Source: Planctomycetia bacterium (GTDB lineage Bacteria; Planctomycetota; Planctomycetia; Gemmatales; Gemmataceae). From it: a stretch of DNA of 34,705 nucleotides. Each line of letters opens with the position of its first letter. Position 1 is the first letter of the stretch. The translations under genes were made by a program, and so were the position numbers. This document shows positions 3,754 through 33,616 of this stretch, piece by piece. Below the pieces are notes generated by a model, which was given only the letters and a program-made list of their open reading frames with translations, was not told the origin of the DNA and searched no databases. Where the stretch lies: NCBI GenBank assembly GCA_005772955.1, contig SXID01000130.1, positions 1 to 34,705 on the forward strand, read 5' to 3'.

Positions 3754-3759
3754 CTTTCG

Positions 3760-3843
3760 TTTAGCCGCGACCCGGAGTCCGCGGAGGGGAGTGCGCCAGT
3801 TACGCATCGCGCTCCCCTCCGCGGACTACGGGTCGCGGCTAAA
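3760..3843. terminator. Long hairpin between convergent genes
   Basis: Two 36-base arms (3760-3795 and 3808-3843) are reverse complements with two mismatches and a 12-base loop. The hairpin sits between the stop of hrpB and the stop of the sulfatase gene, so it could terminate both transcripts. There is no clear T-tract. The element looks like one of the dispersed repeat hairpins of this genome rather than a simple intrinsic terminator. Confidence 0.7.
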
Positions 3844-3867
3844 CACTCCAACCAATCTCTGCCTTCA

Positions 3868-5196: not shown

Positions 5197-5263
5197 TTAC
5201 CAGCCCGCAGCGCACGCAAGGGGCTTTGAAACCAAAACCCTTGCTTGCGCTGCGGGCTGGTAA
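5197..5263. repeat. Hairpin repeat between tandem sulfatase genes
   Basis: Two arms of 26 bases (5197-5222 and 5238-5263) match with one mismatch around a 15-base loop. The element starts four bases after the upstream sulfatase stop codon, read on the minus strand, and lies 19 bases upstream of the start codon of the downstream sulfatase. It could stop transcription after the first sulfatase or shape the leader of the second. There is no U-tract. Confidence 0.75.
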
Positions 5264-9783: not shown

Positions 9784-9795
9784 GCACAAGACAGA

Positions 9796-9852
9796 AGCCG
9801 CTCGCGGCTTCGCACGCGCCCACCGTAGCGATGTGCGAAGCCGCGAGCGGCT
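9796..9852. terminator. Perfect 20-base-arm hairpin, AAGCCGC repeat family
   Basis: Arms 9796-9815 and 9833-9852 (AGCCGCTCGCGGCTTCGCAC and its reverse complement) are perfect complements with a 17-base loop. The arm contains a nested near-palindrome (AAGCCGCTCGCGGCTT). The same unit occurs at 15218, 23261 and 31029. It is placed as a terminator for the regulator but is probably a dispersed element. Confidence 0.75.
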
Positions 9853-10025
9853 TTATGCTCCTCTTCTTCGCTCAGCACCACACCCCATCCCCCCACCGCG
9901 TAACTCCTGCAGAAGACCGAACACGAAGCTCCGGCGTCTGGTCATTTGTTCTCTTGGTGTCCTCTGATCTTCTTCAACCCTGTTTGCTGTTTTCTTTGCG
10001 TTGTTGGGATGGCTTTGTGCCTTTG

Positions 10026-13051: not shown

Positions 13052-13062
13052 GATAAAGAAGG

Positions 13063-13112
13063 ACCTACCCCCCCAACCCCCTCCCTGAAGGGAAGGGGGT
13101 TGGGGGGTAGGT
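13063..13112. repeat. C/G-rich palindromic repeat between two genes
   Basis: Arms of 24 bases (13063-13086 and 13089-13112), starting ACCTACCCCCCC and ending GGGGGGTAGGT, pair almost fully apart from one-base differences in tract length. The core TCCCTGAAGGGA is shared with other family members. It ends 19 bases before the PPC gene start, just ahead of the TAGGAG ribosome site. Confidence 0.8.
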
Positions 13113-13130
13113 TCTTTTAGGAGCCTACCC

Positions 13131-15236: not shown

Positions 15237-15402
15237 GTGTTGTGACGCCTTTTGTGTGACGTATAACAATCCGAACTGCGAAGCAGTGGGTGGGACGCCT
15301 TCGGTATCGCAGTGAAGTTCCGCGGCTCGTGTCGAACCCGCGTTGCTTGTTCGTGCTGCCCCCACGGGACCGGCTCGCGGGGACGTACCTCGTGCCGGTG
15401 TA

Positions 15403-15441
15403 AGCGACCTACCCCCCTTCAGGGAAGGGGGGTAGGTCGCT
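15403..15441. terminator. C/G hairpin between convergent genes
   Basis: AGCGACCTACCCCCCTT (15403-15419) pairs perfectly with AAGGGGGGTAGGTCGCT (15425-15441) around a 5-base loop. On the plus strand it ends with TTTC, and it lies directly after the stop of the minus-strand gene at 15447. It could terminate both convergent transcripts. It belongs to the C/G palindrome family. Confidence 0.7.
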
Positions 15442-15446
15442 TTCGG

Positions 15447-16284: not shown

Positions 16285-17547
16285 TCAAGTAGCAGAAGAG
16301 ATTTCGTGCTGCTTTGGATCGACCGGACCGAACAGCACCAACAGCGCGAATGCCATCGCACCGAGCGGGCGGTAGAAGTCGAACATCACGTTTGCGCTGT
16401 TGATTGGGATCGTCTGAATCACCATCAGCAGGACAGCGGCCCAGCCCCACAGGCGCCATTTCGACGCGCACAGGTCGCGCACCCACGGCACCGCGACCGA
16501 GAGCATCAACAATTCGTACGGCAGCACCTGACTGCACACCGCGGCACCCGCGACCGCGGCGGCGCAAGCCCACGCCGCGGATGGTTTCGCACCTGCTATC
16601 GCACATCGGCCCAGCACCAGCCCGCCCCACACGAGGTAGCCCGCGAGCGTCGTCACTGCGGTCAGTTCGATCACCGGCCCACCGCACGACACGAGTAGCC
16701 GGTTCCAGCTCGTGATCTGCGGGTTGAGTTCGGCCTGGTTGTACAGCACCGCCTTGTGTCCGGTCGGGATGTATTCGAGGTAGTCGCGCAGGAACAGCGG
16801 CGAGCCACCTGTGATCGTCGCGCCGAGCAGGTTGATCGCCGCGACCGACCCGACCAGCGCTGCGGCGTGCCTCCACCCACCGAGGTACCACACCAGCGGA
16901 ATAAGGGGTAGCGCGACGTGCGGCTTCACAAACGTCAGTGACCAGAGAATCACGCCGAGCGTGGGCCGGTTGCGCGAGAAGCACCACAGTCCCGCCGCCA
17001 CGCACCCGACGGAAACGATCGTCACCTGACCGACGATGACGATTGCCAGCGTGAGCGGGTTCAGCACCAGCAGAAACGGCACGACGAACCGCAACACGTT
17101 AGCACGAACGGGCATGCCGCGGTCGGGGTTGCGAAGCAGGTTCGGTAGCGTCGCGATGCCGGCCGCAGCGAGGCCGAGCGTGATCCCCCACGCGACCTTC
17201 GCCGCGCCCCACGGCACGATCGCGAACGGCGCGAAGACGAGGATCGCGGACGGCGGGAGAAAGTATCCGCAGTTGAGGACGAAGCTTTCGCGTTTCGGGT
17301 TCTCCTCCGGGAACTGCGCGGACGCGAGTTTGCGGATGCGGGCGATGTCGTAAGGCGACTCACCACGCAGCCCGATTTCGGACCCGGAGCGGTAGATGAA
17401 GAAGTCGGGGAAGTTGTTCGTGACGAGCGCCTGAGAGACGCTCACCATGCCGAGCAGAATGGCCGGCGCGAAGCGAAGACCTCTCCCCCCAAACCCCGCC
17501 CCTTCAGGGAGGGGGGGTGGGGGGAGAGGTTCTTCGCTGTCAGCCAC
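16285..17547 (-). CDS. Polytopic membrane protein, GT87/DUF2029-like glycosyltransferase
   Basis: The 420-residue product has about ten hydrophobic segments and an early Asp-Phe-like loop (NFPDFFIYRSGSEIGLRGESPYD), which resembles the DUF2029/GT87 family of polyprenol-phosphate-sugar-dependent mannosyltransferases. The conserved FVKPHVALPLIPLVWYL region near residue 205 fits this. The start is GTG at 17547, overlapping the E2 stop codon by eight bases, so translation is probably coupled. Residues 6-22 (EPLPPPPLPEGAGFGGRG) come from an in-frame C/G palindrome rather than from the family fold. The link to the 2-oxoacid dehydrogenase operon is unexplained. It would transfer a sugar at the membrane, but the acceptor is unknown. 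Confidence 0.75.
   Translation of the reverse strand: MADSEEPLPPPPLPEGAGFGGRGLRFAPAILLGMVSVSQALVTNNFPDFFIYRSGSEIGLRGESPYDIARIRKLASAQFPEENPKRESFVLNCGYFLPPSAILVFAPFAIVPWGAAKVAWGITLGLAAAGIATLPNLLRNPDRGMPVRANVLRFVVPFLLVLNPLTLAIVIVGQVTIVSVGCVAAGLWCFSRNRPTLGVILWSLTFVKPHVALPLIPLVWYLGGWRHAAALVGSVAAINLLGATITGGSPLFLRDYLEYIPTGHKAVLYNQAELNPQITSWNRLLVSCGGPVIELTAVTTLAGYLVWGGLVLGRCAIAGAKPSAAWACAAAVAGAAVCSQVLPYELLMLSVAVPWVRDLCASKWRLWGWAAVLLMVIQTIPINSANVMFDFYRPLGAMAFALLVLFGPVDPKQHEISSAT
17479..17531. repeat. C/G palindromic repeat at 5' end of GT87-like gene
   Basis: The arms ACCTCTCCCCCC and GGGGGGAGAGGT flank the core CCCTTCAGGGAGGG. On the minus strand it is translated as EPLPPPPLPEGAGFGGRG immediately after five N-terminal residues. 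The reading frame is different from that used in hrpB (LPEG versus SLQG). Confidence 0.8.
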
Positions 17548-18847
17548 CGAACGTCTCCGGCAGGAGCAGCATGGCGGGCGTTTGCAGATATCGCACCACG
17601 GCGTTCCCGAACGCGGCGCCCACGGCCCCGTCCACGACGCGGTGGTCGAATGAGAATGACAGGTAAACGATGTCCGACGGTTTCAGCACGCCGTTGGAGT
17701 CGTAGAGCGGGCGCTTCACCACCTTGCCGACGCCCATGATACCGACTTCGGGGTGGTTGATGATTGGCGTGGAAATCAAGCCGCCAATGCCACCGACCGA
17801 CGTAACGGTGAAGGTGCCGCCGCGCAGGTCATCGATCTTGATCTTGCCGGTTTTCGCGTCGTTGCCCAGGCGTTCGATGTCGGTCGCGATGGTGGCGAGG
17901 TCTTTCTTGTCCGCGTCCTTGACCACCGGTACCATCAGGCCGCTTGGAGCCGCGACCGCGACGCCGATGTGGTACTTGTCGTACAGCACCACCTCGCCCG
18001 CGGTTTCGTCGTAGGTGCTGTTGACGATGGGCACTTCCTTGAGCGCCCGCGCAACGGCCTTCACGAAGAACGCGAGGTAAGTGAGTTTCACGCCGGCCTC
18101 CGCGAGCGGTTCGCGGAGCTGGTTGCGGAGTTTGACCGCATCGGTTAAGTCGCACTCGTCGATGTACGAGTAGTGTGGGATGTGTTTCTTCGACTCGACC
18201 ATGTGCTCGGCGATGCGCCGGCGCAACCCGATGAGTTTCTGCCGCGTGCCCGCGATGCCGAAGTCGAGTTTCGAGGTATCCGTTTTGTTCGGCGCGGATG
18301 CGGGGCGGGTGTCGAGATTCGGCCTTGGAGCGAGATACGGGGTGAGATCGTCGAGCAAGATGCGGCCGTGTTGCCCGCTCCCGCGAACGTGGCTGAGATC
18401 GACGCCCAACTTACGCGCGAGCGTCCGTACCGAGGGCGCCGCGGGCGGGAGCGTTGTGGCGCCGTTGCTACGTGAAGACAACCCCTCCCCAACCCCTTCC
18501 CTAAGAAGGGAGGGGCTTAATACCGAAGACGCGGTGCCTTCTGGTTTTGGTTCGTCTCCCCCTCCCTTCTTAGGGAAGGGGGTTGGGGGGAGAGGTTCCG
18601 CCTTCGCTTCGTCGTCGACCGTGTTGTAACTCAGGATCACCTGTCCGACCTTGACCTTCGTGCCGGGCGTCGCGGCCAGTTCGGTGATCGTGCCCGCGAA
18701 CGGCGACGGCACTTCCATGCTCGCCTTGTCCGACATCACCTCGGCCATTGCCTGGCCGCGTGCGATCGCATCGCCCGGCCGCACGAGCCAGCGCACCAGT
18801 TCCACCTCGAGCAAGCCTTCGCCAACCGGCGGGAGAGAAAAGTCCAT
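17540..18847 (-). CDS. 2-oxoacid dehydrogenase E2, dihydrolipoamide acyltransferase
   Basis: The 435-residue protein has the standard E2 order. An N-terminal lipoyl domain (1-78) carries the lipoylated lysine K41 in MSDKASMEV. A flexible linker (about 79-132) follows, then a peripheral subunit-binding domain (137-170, VRTLARKLGVDLSHVRGSG), and the acyltransferase domain (about 200-435) with the catalytic His402 in DHRVVDG near the end. It transfers the acyl group from E1 to coenzyme A. The substrate class, branched-chain 2-oxoacids or pyruvate, is not fixed by the sequence, though the E1 partners favour the branched-chain type. The linker contains two inverted copies of a C/G palindrome. The start ATG follows GGAG at a spacing of eight. 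It lies 15 bases after the E1 beta stop. Confidence 0.93.
   Translation of the reverse strand: MDFSLPPVGEGLLEVELVRWLVRPGDAIARGQAMAEVMSDKASMEVPSPFAGTITELAATPGTKVKVGQVILSYNTVDDEAKAEPLPPTPFPKKGGGDEPKPEGTASSVLSPSLLREGVGEGLSSRSNGATTLPPAAPSVRTLARKLGVDLSHVRGSGQHGRILLDDLTPYLAPRPNLDTRPASAPNKTDTSKLDFGIAGTRQKLIGLRRRIAEHMVESKKHIPHYSYIDECDLTDAVKLRNQLREPLAEAGVKLTYLAFFVKAVARALKEVPIVNSTYDETAGEVVLYDKYHIGVAVAAPSGLMVPVVKDADKKDLATIATDIERLGNDAKTGKIKIDDLRGGTFTVTSVGGIGGLISTPIINHPEVGIMGVGKVVKRPLYDSNGVLKPSDIVYLSFSFDHRVVDGAVGAAFGNAVVRYLQTPAMLLLPETFGG
18482..18595. repeat. Two inverted C/G palindromes inside the E2 linker
   Basis: The left copy (18482-18515) and the right copy (18558-18595) are near-perfect reverse complements, each being itself palindromic around TTCCCTAAGAAGGGA. 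They enclose about 42 bases. On the minus strand they are read in two different frames, giving EPLPPTPFPKKGGG and LSPSLLREGVGEG. The frame is kept throughout. The whole unit is like a small hairpin transposable element lying in a flexible protein linker. Confidence 0.8.
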
Positions 18848-18862: not shown

Positions 18863-19921
18863 TCAAGCCGCTTCGGTCGCCAGATCCCACAGCGCGGTGC
18901 GGATGTCGCCCAACTGCGGGACGCTGTTGACCTCGTAGTTCTGGTTCATGCCGATGCCGGGAACGTGCTTGCCCATCAGCGTGCGGGGCCGCACCGACAG
19001 ATCGTAGAAATGCTCATCCACGACCCGACGAAGCAGGTGTTCGCCGAAGTTCGTGACTTCCGTGTCCTCATTCACGATCAGTACCCGCCCGGTCTTTAGT
19101 ACGCTCCGGGAAATCATACCCCAGTCATAGGGGAAGATGCTCCGCAGGTCGATCACGTCGAATGTGCGGTAGTGCTGGGCCGCGAGTTCGTCCGCGGCTT
19201 GCGCGCACAGCGGAAGGGGCCGCCCGTAACTGATCACGGTGCCGAACGTGCCCTCGCGCACCAGTTCCGCCGAACCAATCTTAACTGTGTGGTCTTCTAA
19301 GTTCGGCCAGTTCGGTTCCCAGCCGACGCGATCGTTCACCGGCGCGTCGATCATTCTGCTCAATTCGTCCGCGTCCGCCGGTTCGCCGGGAATGAGGCGT
19401 GTGTCCTTCGCGCGGAGCAGTGCCTTAGGCAGCAGCACGAGCACCGGGTTTGGGTCTTTGATCGCCGCGAGCATCAGACCGTAAGCGTCGAGCGCGTTGG
19501 ACGGCATCACGACTTTCCAACCCGGTAAACGGCTCGCCCAACTTTCAAAACTATGCGAGTGGTACAGGCTCCCGCGGATGCCAGCGCCGTTCGGTGTCAT
19601 CACCACAAGGGGCATGTCGTATCCGCCGCCGCTGGCCCACCGCTGGTTCCCCGCGATCTTGAACATGTCGAGGACGTTGAACGCGTAGTCGCAGAACTGG
19701 ATTTCGCAGACGGGTCGGCCACCGGCGTAGGCGATGCCCATCGCGGTGCCGATGATGCCGCGCTCGTCGAGTGGCGTGTTCCACGCGGTCCGGAGACCTT
19801 GCGTCGCGGTGAACACCCCGCCGAGCGGCGGACCGACGTCCTCACCAAACACGTCCGTCACGCCGAGGTGCTTCTCGCCGAAATGTAACGCCATGCGAAC
19901 GGCTTGTGCCATATTCGCCAT
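18863..19921 (-). CDS. 2-oxoacid dehydrogenase E1 beta subunit
   Basis: The 352-residue protein matches the E1 beta family: GEDVG and GGVFTATQGL near residues 26-43, TPLDERGIIGTAMGIAYAGGRPVCEIQF at about 50-77, and the C-terminal segment SIFPYDWGMISRSVLKTGR. It pairs with E1 alpha to form the thiamine-diphosphate-dependent decarboxylase that acylates the lipoyl arm of E2. The active-site His region reads YHSHSFESW, where SQSPEAW is more common. The start ATG at 19921 has only a weak GGGG ribosome site. A 46-base hairpin-like repeat lies between this gene and E1 alpha, and only 15 bases separate it from E2. Confidence 0.93.
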   Translation of the reverse strand: MANMAQAVRMALHFGEKHLGVTDVFGEDVGPPLGGVFTATQGLRTAWNTPLDERGIIGTAMGIAYAGGRPVCEIQFCDYAFNVLDMFKIAGNQRWASGGGYDMPLVVMTPNGAGIRGSLYHSHSFESWASRLPGWKVVMPSNALDAYGLMLAAIKDPNPVLVLLPKALLRAKDTRLIPGEPADADELSRMIDAPVNDRVGWEPNWPNLEDHTVKIGSAELVREGTFGTVISYGRPLPLCAQAADELAAQHYRTFDVIDLRSIFPYDWGMISRSVLKTGRVLIVNEDTEVTNFGEHLLRRVVDEHFYDLSVRPRTLMGKHVPGIGMNQNYEVNSVPQLGDIRTALWDLATEAA

Positions 19922-19967: not shown

Positions 19968-20031
19968 CCGCAAGCTGAAGGCGAGCGAGCCACGTCCACG
20001 CACAGGTGGCTCGCTCGCCTTCAGCTTGCGG
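19968..20031. repeat. Perfect 26-base-arm hairpin between E1 alpha and E1 beta
   Basis: Arms 19968-19993 and 20006-20031 are perfect reverse complements with a 12-base loop, one of the strongest hairpins of the window. It begins two bases after the E1 alpha stop codon, read on the minus strand, and ends 46 bases before the E1 beta start. It may protect or cleave the operon mRNA, or stop part of the transcripts, tuning the E1 alpha to E1 beta ratio. Confidence 0.8.
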
Positions 20032-20033
20032 GA

Positions 20034-21176
20034 TCAGCGCGCCCCCGGTAGCCCCGTGAAATCCTTGGGGTAAATCGTGTCCACGGCGCTCTCGGCATAG
20101 GTGAATGCGTACACGTCTTCGCGTGTTGGCTCTGGCTCCTTCATCGTCTCGACAACGGCTCGGTCCGCTTCGGCTTTGGCCTCGTCCTTCAAGGCGCGAA
20201 CGGCGTTCGTGTCGATCGCGCCCGCATCGATGAGCTTCTGTTCGAACGCGGCCAGCGAGTCGGCTTCGTTCCAGTTCCGCTGCGCGCCACTGGAGGAGGA
20301 GTGCCCGTGCAACCGGCTTACCATTGTTTCGAGCAGGAACGGCTTGCGCTCGCGTCGGCAGTACCGCATCGCGCGGTCGATGCCGTGCCACGTCGCGACT
20401 GGGTCGTTGCCGTCGATCGTCTCGTACCGCATGCCATAGGGGATCGCGCGGTCCGCGATCGGTCGGTGCGTGTGAACCGTGTCGAGATCGGTCGAGATGC
20501 CGTACCGGTTGTTGGTCACCAGCATCAGCACCGGGAGTTCTTGGCCGGGACGCGTGGTCCAGTTAAGACAACTTTCGAAGTCTCCCTCCGCGGTGCCGGC
20601 CTCGCCGCCGACCACCACCGTGATGCCTTCATTCTCGGTTGGGTTTTTCTGGCCGTGGCGTTTCTGAACCAGCGCCGTGCCGGGCGCCATCGCGAACTGC
20701 ACCTCGATCACGCTCGTGACCGGGATGACGTTCCACTCGGGGATGCTGTAGTGGCCGACGAAGTTGCGTCCGCGGGAGTGTCGGTCCGTCCACCGCATCG
20801 CGAGTTGTCGCGTGTGGTCGATCATGGGCATGCCCATTGTGAGCATGATACCGGCGTTGCGGTAGTGGAGGTGCAGGTAGTCGTGAGCAGGGCCGTGGCC
20901 TTTGTTGATCTGTAACCCGAGACAGACGTTGAAGGCTTCTTCGCCTGGGCCACCTATCCAGAAGTAGGCTTCCCCAGACTTGGACATCTTGATGCTGCGC
21001 TCTTCGATCGCGCGCGTGCGGAGCATCTGGCGGAAGACGGTAAGTGCGACCTCGACTGACAGGGTGTCGCGCCCTGAGCGGATCGCGGAGGGTGCTGCGG
21101 GGTAGGGAGTGGAACGCGCCCCACGCCGCAGCAGCGCGTCTTCGATATCGGGCGGATCCTCGTTCGCGTCTGGCAT
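20034..21176 (-). CDS. 2-oxoacid dehydrogenase E1 alpha subunit
   Basis: With the start at ATG 21176 (GGGAG nine bases upstream) the product has 380 residues. It matches E1 alpha of the branched-chain type: MRTRAIEERSIKM, GPGEEAFNVCLGL, the thiamine-diphosphate segment GGEAGTAEGDF through TNNRYGIST, and the phosphorylation-loop-like RLHGHSSSSGA. The motif that normally reads GDG (or GEG in human BCKDH) is GEA here, and the Gly-to-Ala change is worth noting. The enzyme decarboxylates a 2-oxoacid. The gene heads the E1 alpha-E1 beta-E2-GT87 unit. A further 32 codons upstream are open but are made of short ACCGAAC-type repeats and are unlikely to be translated. Confidence 0.9.
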   Translation of the reverse strand: MPDANEDPPDIEDALLRRGARSTPYPAAPSAIRSGRDTLSVEVALTVFRQMLRTRAIEERSIKMSKSGEAYFWIGGPGEEAFNVCLGLQINKGHGPAHDYLHLHYRNAGIMLTMGMPMIDHTRQLAMRWTDRHSRGRNFVGHYSIPEWNVIPVTSVIEVQFAMAPGTALVQKRHGQKNPTENEGITVVVGGEAGTAEGDFESCLNWTTRPGQELPVLMLVTNNRYGISTDLDTVHTHRPIADRAIPYGMRYETIDGNDPVATWHGIDRAMRYCRRERKPFLLETMVSRLHGHSSSSGAQRNWNEADSLAAFEQKLIDAGAIDTNAVRALKDEAKAEADRAVVETMKEPEPTREDVYAFTYAESAVDTIYPKDFTGLPGAR

Positions 21177-21301
21177 AAGAGGTACTCCCGGCGGGGTGTC
21201 GGTGTCGGAGAGGATCGACCGGGTATTAGTGGTTCGGTAGTTCGGTGGTTCGGGTTTCGTATTTCGAGGCACGGTCCGCGGTGTAGGTTCCTCCGCAGGA
21301 A

Positions 21302-28054: not shown

Positions 28055-29479
28055 ATGCCCGACGTTCGCGAAACACAACTTCTCGTCATCGGCGGCGGCC
28101 CCGGGGGGTACCCGGCCGCGCTGCACGCCGCGGACCACGGCATCAAGGTCACGCTGGTGGACGAGGGCCAGAAACTCGGCGGCGTGTGCCTGAACCGTGG
28201 ATGCATCCCGTCGAAGGCGCTGCTGCACACCGCGAAGATCATTCGCGAAGCACACGAGATGGCCGCTTACGGCGTGACGTTCGGCGAGCCGCAACTCGAC
28301 CTCGCGAAACTCCGCGAGTTCGTGCAGACGAAAGTGGTCGGCAAGCTCACGGGCGGCATCGGTCAACTCACGAAGGGCCGTGGGGTCGATGTGGTGAAGG
28401 GCCGCGCGGTGTTCACAAGTCCCAACACCGTGGAAGTAACCGGCGACGCGCCCCAAACGATCAAGTTCGCACACGCGATCATCGCGACCGGTTCACTTCC
28501 GGTGGTGCCGAAGCCGTGGCAGATCAACGACGACCGCGTAATGGACAGCACCGGCGCGCTGCTGCTACCGGACGTACCGAAGAAGTTCCTGGTGATCGGC
28601 GGCGGCTACATCGGCCTCGAAATCGGCAGCGTGTACGCGGCGCTCGGCAGCAAGGTCACCGTGGTGGAAGCGCTCGACCGCATCCTCTTCATGGCCGACA
28701 AAGACCTCGTTGACCCGCTGGAAAAGAAGCTGAAGGCCGAGTTCGAGGCGATCTACACAAGCACAAGTGTGAAGGGTCTGGAAGCGACGAAGGACGGCAT
28801 CGTGGTGAAGCTCGAAGGCGCGAATGCACCGGCTTCGTTGACATTCGACCGCGTGCTGATCTCGGTCGGTCGGCGTCCGAACTCCGCGAACCTCGGTTTG
28901 GACAAAGCCGGCGTGACCGTGAGCGAGAAGGGCTTCATTCCGATCGACCGTCAGCGGCGCACCAATGTGCCCAACATCTTCGCGATCGGCGACGTGGGCG
29001 AAGAACCGGGCCTCGCGCACAAAGCGACCGCCGAGGCGCGTGTGGTGGTGGAAGTGATTCAGGGCTTGCCGGCGGAGTGGAACCCGCGCGCGATCCCGGC
29101 GGTGATCTTCACCGACCCCGAAATCGCGTGGGCCGGCATCACGCAGAAGGAAGCCGACGAGAAGAAGATCCCTTACGAAGCGCTGAACTTCCCGTGGGCC
29201 GCGAGCGGTCGGGCCGTGAGTATCGCGCGCACCGAAGGCCGCACCAAGATGCTGGTCGATCCCGAAACGAAGCGCGTGTTGGGTGTGGGCATCGTGGGCG
29301 CAGGTGCCGGAGAGATGATTGCAGAGGGCGTTCTCGCCATCGAGATGGGCGCGGTGGCGCGTGACGTGTTGGAGAGCATCCACCCGCACCCGACTCTGAG
29401 CGAAACCATCATGGAGAGCGCCGAACTCGCCTACGGCGGCGCGACCCACGTCGGCAAGCCGCGGAAGGCGACGAAGTAG
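28055..29479 (+). CDS. lpdA: Dihydrolipoyl dehydrogenase (E3)
   Basis: The start at ATG 28055 gives 474 residues, the usual length of E3. The FAD site GGGPGG is at residues 13-18, and the redox disulfide is C45-C50 in GGVCLNRGCIPSK. The NAD site GGGYIGLEIG is near residue 185. The active-site His445-Glu450 pair is in HPHPTLSE near the C-terminus. The enzyme reoxidises dihydrolipoyl groups of E2 using NAD and is shared by 2-oxoacid dehydrogenase complexes. The gene is 6.9 kb from the E1/E2 operon and on the other strand, so it is regulated separately. A longer open frame upstream to 27623 overlaps the preceding gene in another frame and is not real. Confidence 0.95.
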   Translation: MPDVRETQLLVIGGGPGGYPAALHAADHGIKVTLVDEGQKLGGVCLNRGCIPSKALLHTAKIIREAHEMAAYGVTFGEPQLDLAKLREFVQTKVVGKLTGGIGQLTKGRGVDVVKGRAVFTSPNTVEVTGDAPQTIKFAHAIIATGSLPVVPKPWQINDDRVMDSTGALLLPDVPKKFLVIGGGYIGLEIGSVYAALGSKVTVVEALDRILFMADKDLVDPLEKKLKAEFEAIYTSTSVKGLEATKDGIVVKLEGANAPASLTFDRVLISVGRRPNSANLGLDKAGVTVSEKGFIPIDRQRRTNVPNIFAIGDVGEEPGLAHKATAEARVVVEVIQGLPAEWNPRAIPAVIFTDPEIAWAGITQKEADEKKIPYEALNFPWAASGRAVSIARTEGRTKMLVDPETKRVLGVGIVGAGAGEMIAEGVLAIEMGAVARDVLESIHPHPTLSETIMESAELAYGGATHVGKPRKATK

Positions 29480-29480
29480 A

Positions 29481-29574
29481 AGGTAGGTCACTCGCTCCGC
29501 GAGTGACGGCTACGGGAGTGCGGCTCGCGTCGCGGACCACCCTACCGCGCAACTCGCGGAGCGAGTTGCCTACT
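29481..29574. repeat. Nested hairpin repeat between E3 and ferritin-like gene
   Basis: The arms 29481-29506 and 29549-29574 are imperfect reverse complements. Each contains a palindrome of its own, TCACTCGCTCCGCGAGTGA on the left and CAACTCGCGGAGCGAGTTG on the right. It begins just after the E3 stop codon and ends 30 bases before the next start. No T-tract is present. Confidence 0.65.
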
Positions 29575-29604
29575 TTGTAAAGACAGAAGACAAGGAGCGT
29601 GACT

Positions 29605-31029
29605 ATGCCGCCACCAACGCCGCTGGCCGGGTACACGTCATACAAGGGTTTGCCGCCACTCGCGGGGCTTTGCACGGTCGAAGAAGCCGCTCGCCCGGGG
29701 TTGAGCGTCGAAGAGTGCGTGCGGCGCTTGAAGCGGTTTCACTACTGCTTCAAGCGGTTGCACCAGATTCTCACCGCCCGCATCACCGCGGAACCGATCT
29801 ACGAACTCAAGACCGGCTTCGCGCACCACGCCTACCTGTGCGCCGAACACGTCACCGCGCTGCGCACGCGCATCGGCGAAATGCGCGAACCGCCTCTGGG
29901 ACTGGAAGACGTTCCGCACCCCGCGTTGGAAGCCTACTTCGAGGAGATTCAAGGCAACTGGAACACAGAGGAGTTGGTTCTCGGTGCGTATCTGCACGCG
30001 ATGTCGGTGCTCGATACTGCGATTGCGAAATACATGGCGGAAACAAACCCACTGACCGACGCCCCGACCTGTCGAGTGTTGCGCTTCGCCCGTCTCGAAC
30101 TCTCGGACATGAAGAAGTTCGGGGAACACGCGTTTGGGTGTCTCGTTGATGACGAAGTCACCGCAGTCAGTCGATGGCTGAATGCCTGTCTCACTGTCGC
30201 AGGCGGACTGGACGGAACCGCTCCCGAATCGGGAACCGTTCCAGATCGCTTCTATTCAAAGAAGCCCTACGTTTACGACCCTATCCCGCAGCGCGACGAG
30301 CGGTTCTCCGATCCGTGGAACCAGGGCGTGAACGCGGAGAGCTTCCTCTACAACCCGGCGTACCCGGCTCGCGCCAAAGCACTCATGATGCTCTACAAGC
30401 GGCTGCGCGAAATCGACGTGCCCGAAATGATGGCGTCGATCATCACGCAGACGCCCGGCAAGCCGTGGGGCTACTACCGCGACATGACCCGCCAACTCTG
30501 GGACGAAGCGCGACACGCGATGATGGGCGAAGTCGGGTTCGTCGCGCTCGGCGTGGACTGGACGAAGGTCAAGATCACGCTGAACTGGTCGCACCGGCTC
30601 AACACCGAATGCACACCGCTGGAACGGCACGGCGTGCTGTACTTCATCGAGCAAGGGCTGATGCCAAAGACCGGCAAGCGCTACGAGTTCGAGACCGGGC
30701 AGGCGAGTGAACTGCCACTCATAGCGACGCTGCAAGACTTCGACTGGGCCGACGAAGTGCTTCATTCGCAGATCGGTCGCGTGTGGTACGTCCCGCAGTT
30801 CGGCAGCCTGAAGGAATCGCTCGATTACGGTGACGCGGCGTGGTCGAAGGTGTTGAGCAACTGGGCGACCGTGAAGGAGCAGGGGCTAACGAAGCACGAG
30901 AACTGGTGGCCTGCGGTGTACCTGATGGCCTGCGCCGCCGAAGGCGCGACTCCAGACGCCCAGGTGATGGCGTTCGACGAAACGTATGAGGGCAAGCGCG
31001 CGGACTTGCAGCGCATCGCCGGAGAATAA
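29605..31029 (+). CDS. Ferritin-like domain protein
   Basis: The ATG at 29605 follows GGAG by seven bases; the GTG at 29599 is too close to that site. The 474-residue protein is mostly alpha-helical. Segments carry the carboxylate-histidine pattern of di-iron ferritin-like proteins: ELKTGFAHHAYLCAEH near residue 65, TEELVLGAYLHAMS near 120, and QLWDEARHAMMGE at about 297-309. This suggests an iron-binding bundle in a family of unknown catalytic role, perhaps an oxidase. No signal peptide is seen, so it is cytoplasmic. It is flanked by E3 upstream and by a convergent MFS gene downstream, which gives little functional context. Confidence 0.7.
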   Translation: MPPPTPLAGYTSYKGLPPLAGLCTVEEAARPGLSVEECVRRLKRFHYCFKRLHQILTARITAEPIYELKTGFAHHAYLCAEHVTALRTRIGEMREPPLGLEDVPHPALEAYFEEIQGNWNTEELVLGAYLHAMSVLDTAIAKYMAETNPLTDAPTCRVLRFARLELSDMKKFGEHAFGCLVDDEVTAVSRWLNACLTVAGGLDGTAPESGTVPDRFYSKKPYVYDPIPQRDERFSDPWNQGVNAESFLYNPAYPARAKALMMLYKRLREIDVPEMMASIITQTPGKPWGYYRDMTRQLWDEARHAMMGEVGFVALGVDWTKVKITLNWSHRLNTECTPLERHGVLYFIEQGLMPKTGKRYEFETGQASELPLIATLQDFDWADEVLHSQIGRVWYVPQFGSLKESLDYGDAAWSKVLSNWATVKEQGLTKHENWWPAVYLMACAAEGATPDAQVMAFDETYEGKRADLQRIAGE

Positions 31030-31076
31030 GCCGCTCGCGGCTTCGCAGGGAATCGCTCGCGAAGCCGCAAGCGGCT
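31029..31076. terminator. Hairpin fitted exactly between two stop codons
   Basis: Arms 31029-31046 and 31059-31076 (AGCCGCTCGCGGCTTCGC and its partner) have one mismatch and a 12-base loop. The left arm starts at the last base of the TAA of the ferritin-like gene, and the right arm ends at the last base of the stop codon of the convergent MFS gene. It can end both transcripts and belongs to the AAGCCGC family. Confidence 0.75.
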
Positions 31077-32352: not shown

Positions 32353-32429
32353 AAAGTAGTAGGCACACTCCGTGTGCCGTCGCTATTCATCTCGTTTAGC
32401 GACGGCACGCGGAGTGTGCCTACTACTTT
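32353..32429. repeat. 32-base-arm hairpin repeat upstream of MFS gene
   Basis: Arms 32353-32384 and 32398-32429 match with one mismatch around a 13-base loop. Each arm contains GGCACACTCCGTGTGCC or its partner, itself almost palindromic. Translations of the VGTLRVPS/GTRSVPTTL type, which I recall from planctomycete annotations, come from such repeats. It fills the gap between the cupin gene (14 bases) and the MFS gene (14 bases). Confidence 0.8.
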
Positions 32430-33505: not shown

Positions 33506-33539
33506 GATGGAATGGCGAAAATGGGAGTTGGTGACGAAC

Positions 33540-33595
33540 GAGCTGCGACCGCAAGGGAGCGGTTAACGTTTGCCACTCCCTTGCGGTCGCGGCTC
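33540..33595. repeat. Hairpin repeat between DUF1653 and small secreted gene
   Basis: Arms 33540-33562 and 33573-33595 (GAGCTGCGACCGCAAGGGAG and following bases) pair with two mismatches around a 10-base loop. No T-tract. It lies 21 bases after the stop of the gene at 33617 on the minus strand. Confidence 0.7.
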
Positions 33596-33616
33596 ATTGC
33601 AAACGCAATTGCGAGC

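Follow-up and report, generated by a model that had tools for sequence, protein, structure and literature searches.

An in-frame copy of a dispersed palindromic repeat in the E2 linker of a Gemmataceae planctomycete

The locus described here raises the question of why a pair of inverted palindromes should be translated as part of the dihydrolipoyl acyltransferase (E2), and whether it is the DNA or the peptide that accounts for its presence. The window (the whole stretch of DNA analysed, 34,705 nt) is the entire contig C108 of a genome of 5.93 Mb in 278 contigs (hereafter G000), and it encodes an E2 with the domain set of this enzyme according to Pfam: lipoyl (Biotin_lipoyl), E3-binding (E3_binding) and catalytic (2-oxoacid_dh). 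The ORFs that adjoin it (18863-19921 and 20034-21272) are read, from the ORF list, as putative E1-beta and E1-alpha. The palindromic pair in the E2 linker is very probably a copy of a non-autonomous dispersed palindromic repeat, which inserted into the gene and is tolerated in frame in a disordered linker.

The element in the E2 gene

The features of the E2 gene and the other palindromes of the window are given in Table 1. The inverted pair was recognised in an initial annotation made from the sequence, and it was confirmed: the arms (18484-18515 and 18559-18590) are 32 nt long and 91% complementary, separated by 43 nt (initially given as 42), and the DNA of the element folds with z = -6.65 (0 of 200 shuffles equally good), the mRNA with -80.5 kcal/mol (z = -7.13). 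Two exact matches to the 22-nt core occur in the window, where none is expected. Comparison with other copies widened the element slightly from the 18482-18595 first assigned to it, and lengthened the added peptide from about 38 residues to 40 (residues 84-123, translated from the minus strand). That both arms are read in frame between the lipoyl and E3-binding domains was upheld by a stop-free ORF across the element and by Biotin_lipoyl and E3_binding on either side, and the suggestion of an insertion into a tolerant linker agrees with the structure model, in which residues 79-131, including the insert, are disordered (pLDDT < 50). The element would have survived in E2 because it preserved the reading frame and landed in this disordered linker between the lipoyl and E3-binding domains, the extra residues being predicted to be near neutral for the enzyme.

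Table 1. Positions of the E2 gene, the parts of the element and the other strong palindromes of the window.
Feature	Position	Strand	Basis
E2 gene, dihydrolipoyl acyltransferase, 435 aa	17540..18847	-	ORF list, Pfam, PDB relatives
Entire paired element, 118-bp core AACC...GGTT	18480..18597	.	Ends by comparison with other copies; orthologous copy in G001
Type A unit, AACCCCTCCCCAACCCC..TAAGAA..GGGAGGGGCTT	18480..18518	+	Alignment of copies
Type B unit, inverted	18556..18597	-	Alignment of copies
Left-arm core palindrome, CCCTTCCCTAAGAAGGGAGGGG (CCCTCCCC in most listed genomic copies)	18494..18515	+	
Right-arm core palindrome, same C-to-T variant as left arm	18559..18580	-	
Spacer between arms, 43 nt	18516..18558	.	
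Other palindromes	3759-3844, 5197-5263, 9795-9853, 13059-13116, 15402-15442, 17479-17530		
Other palindromes, continued	19968-20031, 29477-29579, 31029-31076, 32353-32429, 33537-33598		

Eleven further strong palindromes of several kinds are present in the window. Judged by the ORF list, most of them sit at the end of a gene or between two gene ends, and the E2 copy stands out as the one clearly inside a gene. Four Rfam matches at E <= 1 were rejected as generic hairpin matches, given scores far under the gathering threshold (best 37.1 bits vs 86).

A family of paired inverted units and its possible movement

The 22-nt core occurs 143 times in G000 (75 forward and 68 reverse at up to three mismatches; reversed control 0 and 0), and the core palindrome 288 times in the nearest genome, G001 (control 0). 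The likeness to a transposable hairpin drawn in the initial annotation was thereby supported insofar as the E2 element is a copy of a dispersed hairpin; the element had been presented as a single curiosity, yet numerous copies of its family lie within genes. A local inverted duplication within the linker, unconnected with mobile DNA, would fit arms that are alike and close together, but has next to no probability against a core that recurs 143 times, and both it and chance are ruled out by these genomic copies.

The family was characterised from 57 element groups at 56 loci, drawn best first from about 100 listed of the 143 core matches, with four listed places (on C134, C84 and C86, and one on C22) left aside. 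In 48 of the 57 groups a plus-strand unit is followed by a minus-strand unit, the inverted-pair layout of REPINs and BIMEs. Two unit types, A and B, occur in all four combinations (by eye, the E2 copy is A-B' on the plus strand), and spacers differ between copies in length and sequence, with spacers resembling that of the E2 element (CTTAAAACCGAAGAC...) in few other copies, e.g., L006 and L058. In the 40 elements whose two ends could both be identified, AACC and GGTT bound 85 to 146 bp, and at each adjoining outer position more than half of these elements match GAAG before AACC and CTTC after GGTT. We conclude that the E2 element belongs to a BIME/REPIN-like family of paired inverted units. 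The same variant was found in both arms in two instances (33 variant positions, 48 pairs), a number reached in 63 of 5000 permutations, which is suggestive of variants mirrored between the arms of a pair.

Judging from their dispersal and from differences between species, the copies would move by transposition, with an enzyme acting in trans. Inverted pairs without target duplication are tied to the single-strand mechanism of IS200/IS605-type elements, and the layout of the family, together with the absence of target duplications, fits such movement; a true REPIN, mobilised by a RAYT of G000, is a possible reading of the element, though a doubtful one. G000 has eight Y1_Tnp genes, five of them bracketed by palindromes, and one bracketing family (AACGAGCCGCGACCGCAAGGGAGCGG; L038 and L163) resembles by eye the E2-linker palindrome of another genome of the genus, G015. 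Against this, the E2-element family was found near none of the eight loci within flanks of about 1.5 kb (shorter at contig ends), and of 106 units only 1 has GTAG no more than 8 nt from its core (CTAC in 2, CGTC in 0 and GACG in 2). Among nine further Y1_Tnp loci in G001, G009 and G012, L164 has a related copy at a distance of about 1.2 kb and L165 has a single weak match to the family, inside its own hairpin; none of the 17 loci is bracketed by the family, as a cognate RAYT of REPINs or BIMEs would be. At the five bracketed loci of G000 (L033, L035, L036, L037 and L038) the palindromes on both sides are REP-like and differ in sequence.

Mobilisation as a MITE, by a DDE transposase recognising terminal inverted repeats, appears unlikely. 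The symmetric ends (GAAG-AACC...GGTT-CTTC, each position present in more than half of the 40 copies) are terminal inverted repeats of the kind found in MITEs, but direct flank duplication did not exceed chance in these 40 elements (mean longest match 1.45 vs 1.11 shuffled, the observed value being reached or exceeded in 27 of 300 shuffles), so that the target duplications which the initial annotation had proposed to look for at the element ends were not borne out. This result, the lack of a clean empty site at the sites compared (see below) and the failure to find a mobilising enzyme at the loci above count against insertion of a non-autonomous repeat, which we still regard as the best explanation.

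Copies within genes

Open, coding-like frames contain 28 of the 57 sites, compared with 322 of 1453 random in-silico insertions of the 40 elements into element-free parts of the same loci (Fisher p = 1.5e-5). To count as open, a frame had to run for at least 50 codons to either side of the insert and to exceed 200 altogether, with GC3 >= 0.65 on both sides, a definition that may pass spurious frames. Of 1436 random points in a companion run, 1079 fell in coding-like frames and 298 kept an open frame after insertion, so a model in which intergenic and in-frame insertions alone persist predicts 298/(298+357), about 45%, of copies in frame; since 49% was observed, random insertion and purifying selection are enough, and targeting is not needed. 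Insertions that break the frame would be the ones removed by selection. Length modulo 3 gave no clear separation of in-gene from other copies among the 40 measured elements.

At 17 of the 28 open-frame sites, Pfam domains flank the insert or extend through it. The hosts are E2, MnmE, a sulfatase-BNR protein, an FAD-linked oxidase, NagB-PIG-L, chorismate synthase, PSD1, a double ABC protein, UbiD, a flavoprotein, an acyltransferase-AMP-binding protein, polyprenyl synthase, an amine oxidase, MutL, RsmB, a methyltransferase and a CT_A_B carboxyltransferase. By Pfam coordinates nine of these inserts fall between domains and eight within a domain, the position of the second Pfam stretch being deduced from profile positions at L006, L044 and L053. 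The remaining 11 open-frame sites have no two-sided domain support: L021 and L060 are probably in-gene, though the printed Pfam coordinates give no domain after the insert, and the others are L003 (two sites), L028, L040, L047, L054, L057, L064 (scanned in both best frames, one of which has an FtsK domain on a single side) and L074. In the alignment of chorismate synthase with PDB 5z9a, a gap falls around the insert: the alignment halts at residue 274 of the ORF translation and restarts at residue 326, with six chain residues between. At L008:1-2688 a single frame contains the sulfatase and BNR-repeat parts, separated by the element; the insertion may have fused two genes here.

For eight decorated proteins that were rescanned, NCBIfam names the same protein kinds. 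NCBIfam holds an RPE model, and no RPE family name was among the matches listed for these eight at E <= 0.1 (for E2, among the best 25), a comparison that concerns protein profiles alone.

Among known repeats, RPEs are likewise dispersed palindromes lying in frame in many unrelated genes (PMC3733652, PMC10969869). The second of these sources, a review, places close to half of the RPEs originally described in R. conorii within ORFs, much as 28 of 57 sites here lie in open frames. The family described here differs from RPEs apparently in sequence, and in its length of 85-146 bp, in its two unit types and variable spacer, and in its GC-rich planctomycete host. The GTAG- and CGTC-tagged REPs, BIMEs and REPINs are, according to Di Nocera et al. 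(2013; PMC3733652), small dispersed stem-loop units, often inverted dimers, as in G000; most REPs are described there as intergenic, with copies also within ORFs, most of these in O. terrae and R. conorii. By comparison, the present family is without the tags, is without a linked RAYT among the loci searched, and has about half of its sites in open frames. Coding palindromes in the mitochondria of Nematomorpha are also inverted repeats within translated protein genes, but both of their arms encode conserved protein regions (PMC6649704), whereas the E2 element encodes an added, poorly conserved peptide. No description of the E2-element repeat in Gemmata was found in the full-text literature (open to search without subscription), and where a Gemmata genome paper mentions palindromes, the passage concerns CRISPR (PMC4672568). 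The family behaves like RPEs and intragenic REPs, and is notable for its high coding share outside Rickettsia: in-gene repeats at such a rate are best known from that genus, and here they occur in core enzymes of large-genome planctomycetes.

DNA, peptide and reuse of sites in relatives

An E2 match was present in all 59 genomes searched, and the nearest E2 (92% identical), that of G001 (MAG record CAMDQN010000042.1), carries an orthologous element at the same place, with a nearly identical spacer. The copy in this separate assembly argues against the in-gene copies being assembly artefacts, and the insertion into the E2 gene would predate the split of the G000 species and G001. An element shared at one place, in linkers whose lengths range over 144-306 nt in the genus (17 measured) and could thus be tuned, might also be a functional linker kept by protein selection, e.g., as a longer swinging arm, but we consider this very unlikely. 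Between G000 and G001, residues 84-125 show two synonymous and four nonsynonymous differences in 42 codons, vs 100 and 26 in 350 codons of the lipoyl, E3-binding and core domains (Fisher p = 0.0003 for synonymous and 0.55 for nonsynonymous differences, not normalised for codon type; other linker stretches and residues 173-199 excluded). The insert peptide was not seen in the other aligned relatives, apart from partial likeness in G012 and G007, and similar peptides occur in unrelated proteins. The initial annotation had held that a peptide conserved in distant planctomycetes with many synonymous changes would speak for an old functional linker; instead, the peptide is not conserved beyond the sister genome and synonymous changes there are few, which suggests that the DNA of the segment, not its peptide, is kept.

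A comparison of three orthologous elements gave differences at 5 of 228 arm positions, 22 of 111 spacer positions and 425 of 2922 flank positions; in E2, both arms share one variant in G000, and both have the family majority in G001. These three elements are indicative of a uniformity of arm DNA that stems from copying, either between the arms or ectopic, or from a role at the DNA level, and not from selection on the peptide; repair templated by the other arm or by other copies could perhaps bring this about. A fourth orthologous site (L077/L109) was excluded from the comparison, since its unit types differ: the pair is A-A' in G000 but B-B' in G001, through either two insertions at one site or conversion between copies.

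Both genomes hold a copy at E2 and at three other matched sites (L010, L069 and L077). Where an 18-kb stretch of G000 carries the family at three sites, G001 is without it at all three, having instead another palindromic pair, an GGGGAGAA-rich stretch and other sequence, which shows that copies come and go between close relatives. None of four sites in this stretch (three of the family and one of another repeat) gave a clean empty site in the one to five relatives compared per site, whose divergence was too great to define ends; other palindromes or repeats occupy some of the sites there. In the NagB-PIG-L linker, three element-free relatives have a different linker of about 62 nt and not simply joined flanks. 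At another orthologous site (L139:16240-16400 and L153), G000 and G001 have different palindrome pairs, neither of which is in G015; orthologous sites seem to be reused by palindromes.

With a one-mismatch pattern, the repeat turned up in 4 of 39 genera of the taxonomic family (17 of 95 genomes). A looser pattern detected it in 13 of 19 genomes of the genus, its reversed control giving one match in each of four genomes. Fold scores of z <= -4 occur in 7 of 19 E2 linkers of the genus (G000, G001, G009, G015, G002, G010 and G014); G016, G007, G004 and the clipped G018 lie between -2.2 and -3.3, and the remaining eight are higher. C-rich pieces in the linkers of G012, G006 and G007 resemble, by eye, decayed copies. 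The survey was extended to 70 of 80 E2 loci of named genomes (in nine the match did not include the N-terminal domain, and L227 was omitted), with the linker proxied by a fixed 190-nt stretch that may miss the true linker in distant E2s. Six of these reach z <= -4, and their longest palindromes all differ: those of L166, L168 and L169 are mutually related and C-rich, and those of L167, L173 and L177 are unlike this trio and each other, giving at least four kinds. The L167 palindrome (G015 coordinates) is similar, by eye, to the repeat found on both sides of tyrosine transposase genes in G000 and G012. The other 64 linkers have z >= -2.1 and include, by title, those of other Gemmata and Gemmataceae, Myxococcota, archaea and Bacteroidota; three of them (L178, L195 and L230) nevertheless contain a short inverted repeat that exceeds in length those of all 60 shuffles.

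The unlike palindromes in different species indicate that the E2 linker is a repeatedly used, tolerant site in the genus. One linker with a different palindrome per species is a natural series for the tolerance of linker insertions, and bears on whether the length of the swinging arm matters and on what moves such repeats. A broader proposition, which we think improbable, is that unrelated mobile palindrome families turn over in protein linkers throughout the genus, their symmetry and likeness being maintained by template-switch or ectopic repair and not by protein selection; were it true, the linkers of core enzymes would be repeatedly rebuilt from hairpins, and mobile DNA would be a main source of new linker sequence. 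In G009, the E2-linker palindrome (L082 and L168, the latter titled Gemmata sp. IIL30) puts two TGA codons in frame; the lipoyl and catalytic parts of this E2 may be separate polypeptides, or the record may contain small errors in C-runs.
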